Positions 12,962-53,154 of a DNA stretch of 64,000 bases are shown piece after piece. Origin of the DNA: Rhizobium jaguaris (GTDB lineage: Bacteria > Pseudomonadota > Alphaproteobacteria > Rhizobiales > Rhizobiaceae); NCBI RefSeq assembly GCF_003627755.1, contig NZ_CP032697.1, positions 62,001-126,000 of the forward strand, written 5' to 3'. The notes beneath the pieces are model-generated. The model saw only the letters and a program-made list of their open reading frames with translations. It was not told the DNA's origin and searched no databases. Each line of letters begins with the position of its first letter. The stretch's first letter is position 1. Both the position numbers and the translations under genes were made by a program.

Positions 12962-13801
12962 CTAAGGCTCGTTTGCGTCAGCCGCTAAGGCCATTGATAG
13001 TAAGAATGCTAAAACCCGGCGGTTCTTCCGATCACTCATCAGGGTTACATGATCGCCGGGAACCGGCACGGCATGAATGGCAGCGACATCTAAGACCCTG
13101 TCCCAGCCGCGCATAGGTGACGTTTCTTCCGCCCCCATTGAATCGCCGACGCGCACGCGCCGGCCCATCGAAGGCGCGCTGGCATAAAATTGATGTATCT
13201 CGACTGGCAAAACTGGAACGTGATAGGACTGCAGCGCTTGGTGAAACTGTGCATACATCGACGCCGTATCGTAGAGTCCATGGTCTTCCGCTATTGCGCC
13301 GATTTCCTCAGCTTTCTGGAGCAACTCAGTAATTGAGCAATCTTTGGCAACACGCTCCAGGAAGTAGAAGCGTTCATCATCTAGCGTTTCGAGAGGCTCG
13401 AAAATCATTTCTAGCGCGATTTGCGCATCCGACATGCTTGGTGGAGTAGCGGGGAGGCTGGCATCAATCAAAGCCATGAATTGTACAGCATCATCGATGC
13501 TTAGTAAGTGCTGGGCAATTGCATAAGCCAAGATTGCCCCTGATGAATATCCAGCAAGACGGTACGGGCCTTGCGGTTGGATTTTCTTTATAACCCGAGC
13601 TACCTGCGCAGCTATTACTTCGAGAGTTGGTGGATCATTTTGGTTGAACGATGGCCATGGCAGAGCATACACAGGGCAGTCTATTTCCATATCCTTCACC
13701 AAGGATAGAACGTATGAATAATCTCCGTAACCCGTCGGAACAAAGAATAGTGGTGGTCGAGATCCAATCGTCCGAACGGGCAGGACTCCAGGGGTGTGAC
13801 G
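12962..13801 (-). other. Thioesterase domain (product release)
   Basis: Alpha/beta-hydrolase type I thioesterase: [16 protein letters not shown] at the N-terminus, YSSGA as the G-x-S-x-G nucleophile elbow, LIDASLP for the acid and VPGDHVTLM for the histidine. It releases the chain by hydrolysis or cyclisation; the Thr at position 5 is a possible lactonising hydroxyl. The DNA is visibly less GC-rich than the modules. Confidence 0.88.
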
Positions 13802-16800
13802 GACGTGATCCAATTGAACTTTGGACGCAATTTGTCTTAGAACAGGAGCTTGGAAGAGATCGGCAGCACTAAACATCAATCCGCGGTTTGCTGCTTGGCT
13901 GAGCAGCCGAATGGCGAGCAGCGAGTGTCCGCCGAGTTCGAAGAAGTTGTCATGGCGTCCGACCCGCTCGAGACCGAGAAGCTCGGCCCAGATCCCGGCC
14001 AGCATCGTCTCGACCTCGCCGCGTGGCGCCTCATAGGCGGTGCGCGCATAGGCGTCGTCGCCCGGAACCGGCAGTGCCTTGCGGTCGAGCTTGCCGTTTG
14101 GTGTCAGCGGCAAGGTATCGATCCGCACGAAGGCCGACGGCACCATGTAGTCCGGCAGCAGGCTACCCAGATGGGCGCGCAGGGAGGCAGCAAGCTGCGC
14201 GCCATCGGCCTCGTACGATCCGGCCTCGGGTGCACAGACCACATAGGCGACGAGCCGCTTGTCGCCGGCGCGGTCCTCTTGCGCCACCACGACGGCCTCG
14301 CGCACGAAGGCGTGCTCGCAAAGCCGTGCGGCGATCTCGCCCGGCTCGATGCGGAAGCCGCGGATCTTCACCTGCTCGTCGTTGCGGCCGAGGAACTCCA
14401 GATTGCCGTCCGGCAGGTAGCGGGCCAGATCGCCGGTGCGGTACATGCGGGCACCGGCTTCGTCACTGAACGGATCGGCCAAAAACCGCTCGGCCGTCAG
14501 CTCCGGCCGGTTGAGATAGCCGCGCGCAACGCCAGCCCCGCCAATGTAAAGCTCGCCCACCGCCCCGAACGGAACCGGCGCGCCATGACCGTCCAGCAGG
14601 TAAATCCGCGTGTTGGCGATCGGGCGGCCGATCGGGACGATGTGATGGAGTTCAGGGACGTTCGTTTCAATAAGAAAACCGGTTGACCAGATCGTTGTTT
14701 CACTCGGACCGTAAAGATTCCTAAGAGAACTTACTTCTCTCTTAAGACGTAACGAAAGATTTGCAGGTAAGGCTTCCCCTCCACACAAGGCACGTGCGTC
14801 CGGTGTTCCTTGCCAGCCGGCATCCAATAGCATGCGCCACGTCGCCGGAGTGGCCTGCAACATGGAAATCTTGTGATGGACGAGAAGCCGCTGCAACCCA
14901 ACAGCGTCCGTAGCATCTCGATGGTTAGCGAGTACGACCGAAGCTCCGGCACTCAATGGAAGATATAACTCCATGCCCGCGATATCAAATGAGATGGTCG
15001 TGACAGCTAGCAGTACATCTCGTTCAGAGATCGAGGATGTATCCAAAAAGGCAGATAGGAAATTCAGCACACTCTGGTGCTCGACCATGACACCCTTTGG
15101 CGTCCCGGTGGAGCCCGATGTATAGATGATATAGGCGAGATGGCGGGACGTCAGGCCGAGGGCGTGCGGCTCTGGGTCCATGGCCGGCAGTTCGGCCCAG
15201 GCCGGGGTGGCGGTATCGAGATCGACCAGCGTCAGACCGGCGATCGCCTCTGGGCCGAGGGCTTGGCGGCCGGCCGCATCGCAAAGCAGCAGCTGCGGGG
15301 CGGCATCCCCGAGAACCTGGATCAGCCGCTGAGACGGATAGGCTGGATCGAGCGGCACGTAGGCGCCGCCTGCCTTGAGGATCGCCAGCAGCCCCACCAC
15401 CATGGCCGGGCTGCGCTGAAGGCAGATCGCCACCGGCTGGTCCGGCTTGACCCCAAGGGCGATCAGATGATGCGCCAGGCGGTTGGCCCGGGCATTGAGT
15501 TCGCCATAGCTCAGGTGCTCGTCCTCATGGACCACCGCCACCGCGTCCGGCGTCTTGGCTGCCTGCTGCTCGAACAGCTCGTGGATGCATCTGTCCGCAG
15601 GATAAGGCGCCTGCGTCCGGTTCAGATCCTCCAGCAGATAGGTCCGCTCCTCGGCCGGCAGGATGTCGAGATCGCACACCGGCATATCGGGGGCATGCTC
15701 CAGTGCTTCGGCCAGTTGCTCGAGCACGTGCTGCATATAACCGCAGACCCGCTCCGCAGAGATGGGCTCGGCCACTTCCGCCGTCAGGCCGAGCGCCTCG
15801 CCAAAATCCTCCACCGACAGGGTCAGCGGATAGTTGGTGCGTTCCTCGCTGCCCAGCCATTCCATGCCGGAGAGGATATCGTCCGTGCCCCCTGGCGCTG
15901 GCATGTTGTTGTGACGATAGTTCAACAGGGCGCTGAACAGCGGTGCCGGTGCTGCAATTCCGCTGCAGCGTTGCGCCAGTGCCAGCGAGGCATGCTCGTG
16001 CGCCAGCAGCTCGGAAAGCCGGCCATGGGTAATGCGAACACTCTCCTCGACCCCGGTCCCGTCGAGATCGAGCCGCACAGGCAGGGTGTTCATGAACAGG
16101 CCCATGGCACGGTCTGCACCGGTACCGGCATGCATGCGGCCGAACAGCACCGTGCCGAACACCACCTGCTCTTGGCCACTGCTCAGCGCCAGCGCCTGCC
16201 CCCAGGCCAGATGGCACAGGCTCGCCAGGCTCACCCCCAGCCGCCGCGCCTGGCCGCGTAGCCGATCGTTGAGCGCCTGCGGCAGCATCCGCCGCGCTTC
16301 GCCAGATCTGCTGCCATCGCCATGGACCTCGCTCAGTCCGAACGGCAGGGTCGGCTCGTCAATGTCGGCCAGCATCCCCCGGAAGAACTCTTCATGCGCC
16401 TTGGCATCAATTCCCAGCCGCGCCTGCGCCACCAGATTGCGGAACGGCTGCGGCGCCGGCAGTTCGTGCGCGCGGCCCTGCAGCACGGCCTCGACCTCGG
16501 CATGCATCACTTCCAGCGTCGTGTGGTCGCCGATCAGATGATGCTGCAGCTCCAAAAGCAGCCAGCGCCCGCCGCCACCCGGCTCGGGCGCGATCACGAA
16601 CCGCATCAAGGGTGCCCGGGCCAAATCGATGCGATACTGACGCGGATCGAACCGGTGCCTGAGCTCAGCGGCGCCGGAACCATCACAGCCATCCAGCTCG
16701 ACCTCGTCTACCTCGAGCGGCGCCTTGCGCCACACCACTTGCGCCGGGCTCGACAGGCCCTCCCAGACAAAGGCCGTGCGCAGGATGTCGTGACGGTCGA

Positions 16801-52500: not shown

Positions 52501-53154
52501 CCGTCGGCACTTTGGAAAGTAACTTCTATTTTGAAGTTTTTGTGGCTGGGCTTTGAGCCCCCCATCGATCAAGCCTTCAAGGAGTTCGGCAAACCCTGCT
52601 ATAGCGGCTTCATAACATTTAAGATTCAGCGTTAATGCTGTGTCGGTTGACGCAATGAACACCGGCCGCTGAATAAGAACTTCACCGGTATCAATTCCAG
52701 CATCAATGCGATGCCAAACAATGGCATGTTCAGACTCTTGGGCAAGAAGGGCCCACGATGTCGCGTTAGTTCCTGCATATTTTGGCAGAGGGCCGTCATG
52801 ATAATTGAAAGCGCCTTGTCGGGCTTGAGCAAACACATTTTTTGGCAAAATGAATGGGTTGGCAACGGAAAATATTGAATCTACACGTTCTGCATGTACG
52901 AATGCCGATAACTCCTCCATGCTTTCCAAGCATGGTATACCACTATGGGCAACCCAACCGCGAAATATCCGGTCAGCACACAGCGCTGCTCGGATTGAAT
53001 AACCCATTTCGATTGCGATCTGGGCACATCGAATCGCCAGCGTACCACTGCCGATGAAGATGCTTGAGAGTTCCGAGGACACTCCAGAAAGTTGCGCATG
53101 CCAGGGCTCTAAACTGCGATCGTGGATCCTGTCCTGACGAAACCGATTGGCCAT
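46231..53154 (-). CDS. Two-module nonribosomal peptide synthetase with N-terminal formyltransferase domain (2307 aa)
   Basis: Starts the assembly line. Residues 1 to about 330 form a methionyl-tRNA-formyltransferase-like domain: [13 protein letters not shown] with Asn117 and His119, and Asp155 in GIDTGE 36 residues later, the catalytic spacing of that family. Next, about residues 345-570 match only the C-terminal lobe of a condensation domain (EEFWRQRL onward); the HHxxxDG lobe is absent. Then A1 (580-1100), T1 (Ser1162), a dual C/E domain, A2 and T2 (Ser2248), and a C-terminal tail ([15 protein letters not shown]) that may dock with the next protein. ATG 53154 has GAGGA 8 nt upstream. The stop overlaps the start of the ten-module gene. 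By analogy with gramicidin synthetase LgrA the first residue may be N-formylated before elongation. Confidence 0.93.
49560..53154 (-). other. Module 1: F-halfC-A-T, Asp-like code
   Basis: Loading module. The A core at about 50380-50830 gives DGTKMGHVGK, nearest to the Asp code DLTKVGHIGK but with Gly for Leu at the second position, so substrate is tentative. The T domain (AVQLIERL) is the pre-C/E type. A1 and T1 differ from other modules more than those differ among themselves. Confidence 0.75.

Follow-up and report, generated by a model that had tools for sequence, protein, structure and literature searches.

What does a bacterium isolated from root nodules make with a peptide synthetase of twelve modules, and does the product concern its legume host? 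We addressed this question in a 64,000-nt stretch (C4:62001-126000, hereafter the window) of the Rhizobium jaguaris genome (8,025,568 bases, four contigs), which carries two nonribosomal peptide synthetase (NRPS) genes, NRPS-A and NRPS-B. Strain CCGE525 comes from nodules of Calliandra grandiflora, and its contig C3 (550,563 bases) is the symbiotic plasmid (PMC6395872). The two genes encode an intact twelve-module synthetase that starts with a formyltransferase (F) domain. We lean towards reading them as a symbiosis-linked operon, controlled by NodD, that makes a secreted formyl-dodecapeptide for the interaction with legumes; NodD control, peptide structure, export and role are predictions from sequence.

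An intact formyl-start synthetase

NRPS-A and NRPS-B lie on the minus strand and fill exactly the interval, 12962..53154, that the preliminary description of this DNA had assigned to a twelve-module line with a possible formyl start. They overlap by 4 nt, and the reading-frame check revealed no internal stop in either (Table 1). The domain order along the chain is F, a truncated condensation (C) domain, an adenylation-thiolation (A-T) module, a dual C-A-T module, ten further C-A-T modules and a thioesterase (TE), so that the proposed twelve-module line with a formyl start was borne out. This order was obtained with profiles built from the window itself, those for F, truncated C and TE included; TE and truncated C were cross-checked with Pfam. 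Besides F and a single full C, Pfam identifies two A domains and two T domains in NRPS-A, and in the window's stretch of C4 PF00668 matches 11 C domains. The truncated C, at 27.7 bits, falls below the PF00668 cut-off of 30.6, and the EntF alignment of this region begins at residue 370. In the F alignment the window has N117, H119 and the D of IDTG, which we take to be the catalytic triad by analogy with Met-tRNA formyltransferase. The best solved-structure match of NRPS-A is the linear gramicidin synthetase LgrA, which also starts F-A-T; LgrA specifies other residues, the window differs by its C-terminal TE, and LgrA is not known to have a truncated C between F and A.

It is very improbable that the number of modules is an artefact of assembling near-identical repeats. 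Exact repeats do reach 3,677 nt (the longest runs from M3 to the C of M4 and recurs from M9 to the C of M10), but 40 kb pass without a frame break, every run of like modules is marked by its A cores and C types, the longest such run (M8-M10) spans ~9.8 kb, and the genome was assembled with Canu from a PacBio library of 15-20 kb inserts at ~278x (PMC6395872).

The predicted peptide

Specificity codes read at fixed profile positions of the A domains gave DGTKMGHVGK for M1, DLYNNALTYK for M2, M4, M6 and M7, DANNIGEVGK for M3, M8, M9 and M10, DFWNIGMVHK for M5, DAFWLGGTFK for M11 and DIMQLGLIWK for M12, the same grouping into two four-copy cores and four single-copy cores (1, 5, 11 and 12) as first described. 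By published code tables, the predicted substrates are Asp-like, Ala, X, Ala, Thr, Ala, Ala, X, X, X, Val and Gly. The closest solved structure to the Ala core is that of the microcystin synthetase McyA. The X code ends in GEVGK, as Asn codes do, but without their Lys, and the top solved-structure relatives of its core are general ones (LgrA and others). C domains of M2, M4, M9, M10 and M12 carry HHLIGDH, and those of M3, M5, M6, M7, M8 and M11 carry HHIVSDG, motifs that we take to denote the dual and the LCL type, respectively. On this assignment of C types, D residues are predicted at positions 1, 3, 8, 9 and 11, and the product would be formyl-D-Asp-Ala-D-X-Ala-Thr-Ala-Ala-D-X-D-X-X-D-Val-Gly. 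Its calculated mass is 702.318 when the four X residues are left out of the sum, and the linear acid would have a mass of 1158.490 if X were Asn. Residue order and stereochemistry both agree with the preliminary description, which knew of no such peptide; likewise, we found no matching product in the open-access literature, nor any match there to the codes of M1, M2, M3 and M12.

A family found largely in nodulating bacteria

We searched one-per-species genomes with a profile of nine F domains; 99 matches were confirmed and 80 kept. Among the matches listed, 61 of the 80 have 56-89% F identity and all belong to genera of nodule bacteria (Rhizobium, Sinorhizobium/Ensifer, Mesorhizobium, Bradyrhizobium and Paraburkholderia); the other 19, at 42-47%, belong to Photorhabdus, Xenorhabdus, Mycetohabitans and Burkholderia. 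Among the viral contigs scanned, no relative was confirmed. The F tree sets the nodule set apart (SH-aLRT 94, against a mark of 95), with the exception of the misread row L127, and mixes the genera inside it; R. calliandrae and Sinorhizobium sp. 8-89 form a group with the window (support 100). The tree left out three of 74 loci (L022 and L130 by choice, one with an early stop). The F start is misplaced or truncated in L127, for which an annotated start past F was used, and in L027; these two rows form the longest branches of the tree, and their upstream scans are unreliable. The F-NRPSs of Photorhabdus and Xenorhabdus, at 42-47% to the rhizobial query and presumably of the kolossin type, also start with F and occupy a separate branch.

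All 44 distinct genomes behind the 61 close loci contain nodA. In a sample of 195 Bradyrhizobium genomes, nodA was present in 109 and an F-NRPS in 31, all 31 having both (p=1.6e-9); the corresponding fraction among genomes with other condensation domains only was 64/108 (p=1.4e-6 against 31/31). The family search had already reached 18 of these 31 carriers, and the other 13 are nodA-positive as well. In a Rhizobiaceae-family sample (247 genomes, 14 with nodA), the three genomes with a close F-NRPS all had nodA; close here means at least 57% F identity, with the line drawn at 55% and the next F matches at no more than 42%. Thus, the F family is restricted to nodA-bearing genomes in these samples, and while NRPSs generally lean to nodulators, in the Bradyrhizobium sample the F family alone is exclusive to them. 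Where the Bradyrhizobium lists place F-NRPS and nodA on one contig, the nine distances between them, taken from contig coordinates, were 37, 47, 57, 64, 97, 197 and 517 kb, and 4.4 and 6.0 Mb. R. jaguaris itself has three full-length nodA copies on C3 (97357, 149744 and 196339).

In the open-access literature searched, we recognised from titles and abstract openings none that deals with a family of formyl-start NRPSs in rhizobia. The available part of PMC12815270 covers siderophore NRPSs (malleobactin type), and a term search for peptide synthetase gave no match in the available parts of PMC4990936, PMC5596368 and PMC3538637.

Symbiosis-type promoter elements

A nod-box-like element precedes NRPS-A (Table 1). 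Its core, ATNNAAACAATNNATT, occurs eight times in the 8.03-Mb genome, compared with none for the reversed pattern. Six of the eight are on the symbiotic plasmid, one of them 5' of nodA, and two are on C4: one before NRPS-A and oriented toward it, the other (C4:299568) before an RTX (HemolysinCabind) gene, which we take to be nodO-like. Across 25 carrier genomes the core had 82 matches, against 1 for the control, and in the nearest relatives it recurs upstream at -414 (R. calliandrae) and -434 (Sinorhizobium sp. 8-89). The nod box at C3:48017 was considered as promoter of a second R. jaguaris F-NRPS and rejected, since it precedes glycosyltransferase and hydrolase genes.

Other members of the family have a different symbiosis-type element. 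In 22 of 74 loci (a total that includes both the window and the copy on C3), the 800 nt before F hold a strict -24/-12 (sigma-54) site, and in 16 of these the activator site TGT-N10-ACA follows 60-200 nt further upstream. Relative to the rest of the same loci, the control relied on here (an earlier one used mononucleotide shuffles), -24/-12 sites are enriched ~29-fold (22 in the 58.6 kb that precede F, compared with 37 in the remaining 2.84 Mb), and pairs with the NifA-type site ~39-fold (16 against 20). Nineteen of the 22 loci are from Bradyrhizobium, many related by descent, and the whole set falls into seven position classes; the other three, one each from S. psoraleae, M. mediterraneum and M. 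tianshanense, lack the activator site. For -24/-12 we followed the consensus quoted in PMC3538637, whose available part prints the activator site as TGT-N10-AGA; the form used here is TGT-N10-ACA. In several Bradyrhizobium loci a short open reading frame (ORF) starting MKLxRLIQI stands between the sigma-54 site and the NRPS (L047 at -634, L093 at -314). The B. diazoefficiens NRPS gene blr2108 belongs to the NifA and RpoN regulon and is 39-fold up in bacteroids, according to the available part of PMC6515984, and it is listed in a table of orthologues of differentially expressed genes in that of PMC8632152; it serves here as a precedent for a symbiosis-regulated NRPS. Symbiosis-type promoter elements are thus found upstream of part of the family.

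Several observations weigh against a NodD-controlled, symbiotic operon. The operon sits on an accessory plasmid, C4 (314,764 bases), and not on the symbiotic one. The nod-box-like element scores 12/18 against the Schlaman consensus, where the box of nodA scores 16; 16 window positions score at least 12 (both strands, the box itself counted twice); and it does not have the final AAT of the consensus given in the available part of PMC4990936. Its conservation relative to L045 (78.7%, mean 57.4%) ranks 12th of 560 upstream windows, the eight best conserved windows shown being at -54 to -63, beside the start codon, and of the 74 loci just 4 have the core upstream, in one case at a distance of 5.4 kb and behind two other genes. 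A strict sigma-54 site is absent within 800 nt in 52 of 74 loci, and the window has no -24/-12 site of the NifA-RpoN kind in 1.5 kb upstream. Genomes with other NRPSs are also enriched in nodA (64/108, against 14/56 with neither), so that the link may partly reflect a larger accessory genome, and both genomes and promoters are phylogenetically non-independent. Finally, several relatives are frameshifted or lack an F catalytic residue, which makes the peptide dispensable in some strains.

One may ask whether the association with nodA is hitch-hiking, the nod-box-like element a relic or chance match, and control exerted by something else, for instance a LysR regulator. The low consensus score, the missing AAT and the lean of other NRPSs to nodA genomes would fit, as would the divergent LysR genes beside the F-NRPSs of WSM419, AK21, ml56 and Vaf10 and the LysR genes (31-38%) at one Mycetohabitans, one Burkholderia and two Photorhabdus loci. 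We nevertheless consider it unlikely: the core occurs just eight times in 8 Mb, is correctly oriented and is kept in two relatives, the enrichment of sigma-54 sites does not depend on the nod box, and a tblastn search found no LysR relative in the window.

Under the symbiotic reading that we favour, flavonoid-bound NodD would activate the nod box upstream of NRPS-A, and the phosphopantetheinyl transferase encoded nearby would prime the carrier domains. The F domain would formylate the first residue, probably Asp, on T1; the other residues would be added colinearly along the observed domain order, with epimerisation by the dual C domains, and the TE would release the peptide, perhaps for export by the divergent ABC transporter. 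The peptide's site of action might then be the root or the infection thread, and its target the plant or rival rhizobia.

Concerted evolution of the modules

The modules had been described as nearly identical outside their A cores and as grown by recent duplication. The first statement holds: in the 43 module pairs with different cores, mean DNA identity is 0.97-1.00 in most 60-nt windows outside the core and 0.30-0.49 inside it; of the windows listed outside the core, seven dip to 0.75-0.92. Identity persists to just past motif A3, drops in the core and returns after motif A5, which delimits an exchanged piece of 140-154 residues across the twelve modules. Pairs with the same core are 96.9-100% identical over A-T. 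The T domains form two main classes, that of M3, M8, M9 and M11 preceding a dual C.

As to duplication, the recent origin of the identity stands, and duplication alone does not explain it. The five dual C domains of the window differ at 0-3 of 1,539 nt (99.8-100% alike), compared with a mean of at most 87.2% to any other locus compared; its six LCL copies are 94.4-100% alike within the window and 89.3% outside. Paralogous copies are thus more alike than orthologous ones for both C types, as expected under concerted evolution. LCL copies of L022 are 94.9-99.6% alike. We compared 20 loci with dual C domains, 17 of them with two or more copies, and copies within a gene are 98.2-100% identical in DNA in 14 of the 17, the exceptions being L021 (68.5%), L023 (89.8-97.7%) and L029 (95.0-99.9%). 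Because identity between the main groups is only ~84-95%, the copies must have been homogenised within genes, and present identity therefore cannot date the module duplications. Near strains share one dual C type (L026/L124/L125/L127; L126/L128; L130/L131), and in these sets identity within genes does not exceed that between genes.

The modules have evolved in concert and not by duplication alone, though duplication must still have occurred. Beyond this, the preliminary description did not bring up the tie of the family to nodulators, the nod-box-like element, the adjoining PLP-like, GNAT-like and phosphopantetheinyl transferase genes or the relatives with other module numbers. The pattern is of C, T and outer A regions kept alike while A cores of ~150 residues change places, and recombination is the probable mechanism. 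Concerted evolution of NRPS and polyketide synthase domains is known from the group of daptomycin and the calcium-dependent antibiotic and from syringopeptin (available part of PMC4256081), and A-core exchange is known in NRPSs (available part of PMC9205934). The pattern here is like theirs; what differs is that it occurs in a largely plasmid-borne, nodulation-linked family of 4 to 17 modules.

Variation among relatives

The plasmid records show relatives built in the same way, their module number ranging from 4 to 17. Module order is kept between S. medicae ml4 and ml2 (and ml60 up to its broken last module), between Rhizobium T136 and T1470, and between B. japonicum USDA 123 and B. barranii 323S2, apart from a frame break in 323S2. 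The second R. jaguaris F-NRPS (C3:53403 onward; L040, L041), four modules in two frames on the symbiotic plasmid, has the module order of Paraburkholderia sabiae L028, in another class of bacteria, with small code differences. Rearranged orders were found in S. meliloti AK21, 1132 and ml56, S. medicae WSM419 and ml20, and Rhizobium 007, several with frame breaks, and R. leguminosarum Vaf10 (L146) is decayed, with two modules of which an IS21 element interrupts the second. L022 with L143 (Rhizobium 007), L144 and L145 are frame-broken, some perhaps by sequencing errors.

WSM419 (on pSMED03), AK21 and Rhizobium 007 share the F start with the window; for 1132 the 5' end lies outside the stretch fetched and F was not seen. 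All four otherwise resemble the window in their repeated C types, their ending X-(Leu/Val)-Gly-TE and their repertoire of A cores (Ala, DANN(I/V)GEVGK, DGTKMGHVGK, Thr and Gly), with other orders and module counts (WSM419 16, AK21 14, the frameshifted Rhizobium 007 17). In WSM419 (L141 and L142) and AK21 (L027) a shortened F is joined to a full C, unlike the truncated C of the window. L022 and L027, the two scanned, have no nod-box core, the L027 scan being unreliable. We found no described product for these Sinorhizobium and Rhizobium 007 synthetases.

The Asn-His-Asp triad of F was matched in 41 of 74 loci, the rest having substitutions or being missed by the regular expression. In eight Bradyrhizobium loci (L090, L092-L097 and L099) the His is replaced by Gln and the sigma-54 promoter is kept; formylation may have been lost there and the synthetase retained. 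One Bradyrhizobium stretch (G352:C1:50996-87787) has, besides F-NRPS matches, several equal-score condensation domains in an 11,177-aa frame.

These comparisons bear on a further explanation, a plasmid-borne, antibiotic-like competition peptide without a role in plant signalling, spread among nodulators by replicon exchange; a nod box, if active, would merely time production to the rhizosphere. Several carrier plasmids are typed conjugative (others are mobilizable or non-mobilizable), genera intermingle in the F tree, where 12 groups require 22 changes, A-core turnover would fit an arms race, and some relatives are decayed. Two kinds of symbiosis-type promoter recur upstream, and nodA accompanies the family in 44 of 44 genomes; both speak for symbiosis, yet a role in competition is still compatible with them. 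We regard this explanation as plausible, though a little short of probable.

Exchange of A-core cassettes and changes in module number would give different peptides in different strains from one framework. More tentatively, and with considerable doubt, hypervariable formyl peptides under NodD or NifA might form a second strain-specific symbiotic vocabulary beside Nod factors, addressed to hosts or competitors. The biosynthetic logic is already known; the surprise for a specialist lies in the link to nodulation and in peptides that vary by strain. If the symbiotic reading is correct, nodulating bacteria have a class of large secreted peptides that has gone unrecognised so far, and NRPS chemistry would be tied, in alpha-rhizobia as well as beta-rhizobia, to host range or to competition for nodules. 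The partnership with legumes may have a peptide language, that of the F-NRPS family, which has been overlooked. The homogenised C-A-T modules and their naturally occurring A-core cassettes offer a ready library of interchangeable parts, and the order changes among S. meliloti and S. medicae strains a natural experiment in assembly-line rewiring.

Neighbouring genes

Three genes follow NRPS-B (Table 1). The 498-aa protein gave no significant Pfam and no PDB match; D239, Q242 and K266 are among its invariant residues in 38 aligned sequences, and its motifs suggest a class-V-type pyridoxal phosphate (PLP) enzyme. Relatives of this gene and of the GNAT-like 249-aa gene follow NRPS-B in WSM419, AK21, 1132, ml20, ml56, Vaf10 and Rhizobium 007, where, unlike in the window, a ParB-N gene separates the two; WSM419 and AK21 additionally carry SagB and a divergent LysR gene. 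No ParB-N, SagB or LysR relative was found in the window by tblastn. The idea that the PLP-like gene makes residue X is weakened by L026 and L127: both have X-type cores, yet a tblastn search of the 50 kb fetched turned up no PLP-like and no GNAT-like gene there. O-phosphoserine chemistry through a ParB-N gene is inapplicable here, given that negative tblastn result. The phosphopantetheinyl transferase has relatives of 70-79% in four F-NRPS loci, and the ABC exporter one of 98% in R. calliandrae L044, other matches in the fetched loci being partial and at most 39%.

Table 1. Features of the synthetase locus, in window positions.
Feature	Positions	Strand	Size or evidence
NRPS-A: F, truncated C, A1-T1, dual C, A2-T2	46231..53154	-	2307 aa
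NRPS-B: modules 3-12 (ten C-A-T) and TE	12962..46234	-	11090 aa
Nod-box-like element (core 53554-53569)	53545..53591	-	core 415 nt upstream of NRPS-A start codon
Formyltransferase (F) domain	52165..53154	-	PF00551 at residues 79-187; 330-aa alignment with 8 relatives
Truncated C (C-terminal lobe), between F and A1	51340..52164	-	PF00668 positions 191-455/456
A domain M1 (Asp-like)	49888..51342	-	profile positions
Dual C of M2	48055..49593	-	HH motif, profile
A domain M2 (Ala)	46630..48054	-	profile positions; core closest to McyA
A domain M3 (X)	43280..44719	-	profile positions
Dual C of M4	41447..42985	-	HH motif, profile
A domain M4 (Ala)	40022..41446	-	profile positions
A domain M5 (Thr)	36785..38251	-	profile positions
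A domain M6 (Ala)	33590..35014	-	profile positions
A domain M7 (Ala)	30395..31819	-	profile positions
A domain M8 (X)	27179..28624	-	profile positions
Dual C of M9	25346..26884	-	HH motif, profile
A domain M9 (X)	23906..25345	-	profile positions
Dual C of M10	22073..23611	-	HH motif, profile
A domain M10 (X)	20633..22072	-	profile positions
A domain M11 (Val)	17423..18862	-	profile positions
Dual C of M12	15590..17128	-	HH motif, profile
A domain M12 (Gly)	14141..15589	-	profile positions
Thioesterase, C-terminal in NRPS-B	12965..13846	-	PF00975, 82.2 bits; motif GYSSG
PLP-fold-like protein	11438..12934	-	498 aa; 27 nt past NRPS-B
GNAT-like protein	10642..11391	-	249 aa; 46 nt past PLP-like gene; many homologues named GNAT superfamily by sources
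4'-Phosphopantetheinyl transferase	9495..10100	-	PF17837, PF01648; 541 nt past 249-aa gene
ABC exporter (membrane and ATPase), divergent, candidate exporter	54610..56271	+	98% relative in R. calliandrae L044

Farther out, an operon-like set on the minus strand (2671-7649) encodes a nucleotidyltransferase, a DgaE/SelA-like PLP protein, a GHMP kinase, a CDP-alcohol phosphatidyltransferase and a methyltransferase, perhaps an unusual head-group or phosphonate-type pathway. An ORF at 8030-8953 has a partial NifH match (profile 1-63/271), and the stretch beside it is 86-89% identical to Rhizobium plasmid DNA in the rows shown, with an IS6 transposase in some records. At the other end, 58081-63549 contains a transposase and then a transfer region that is partly 91.8% identical to a plasmid of Rhizobium sp. 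CB3171.

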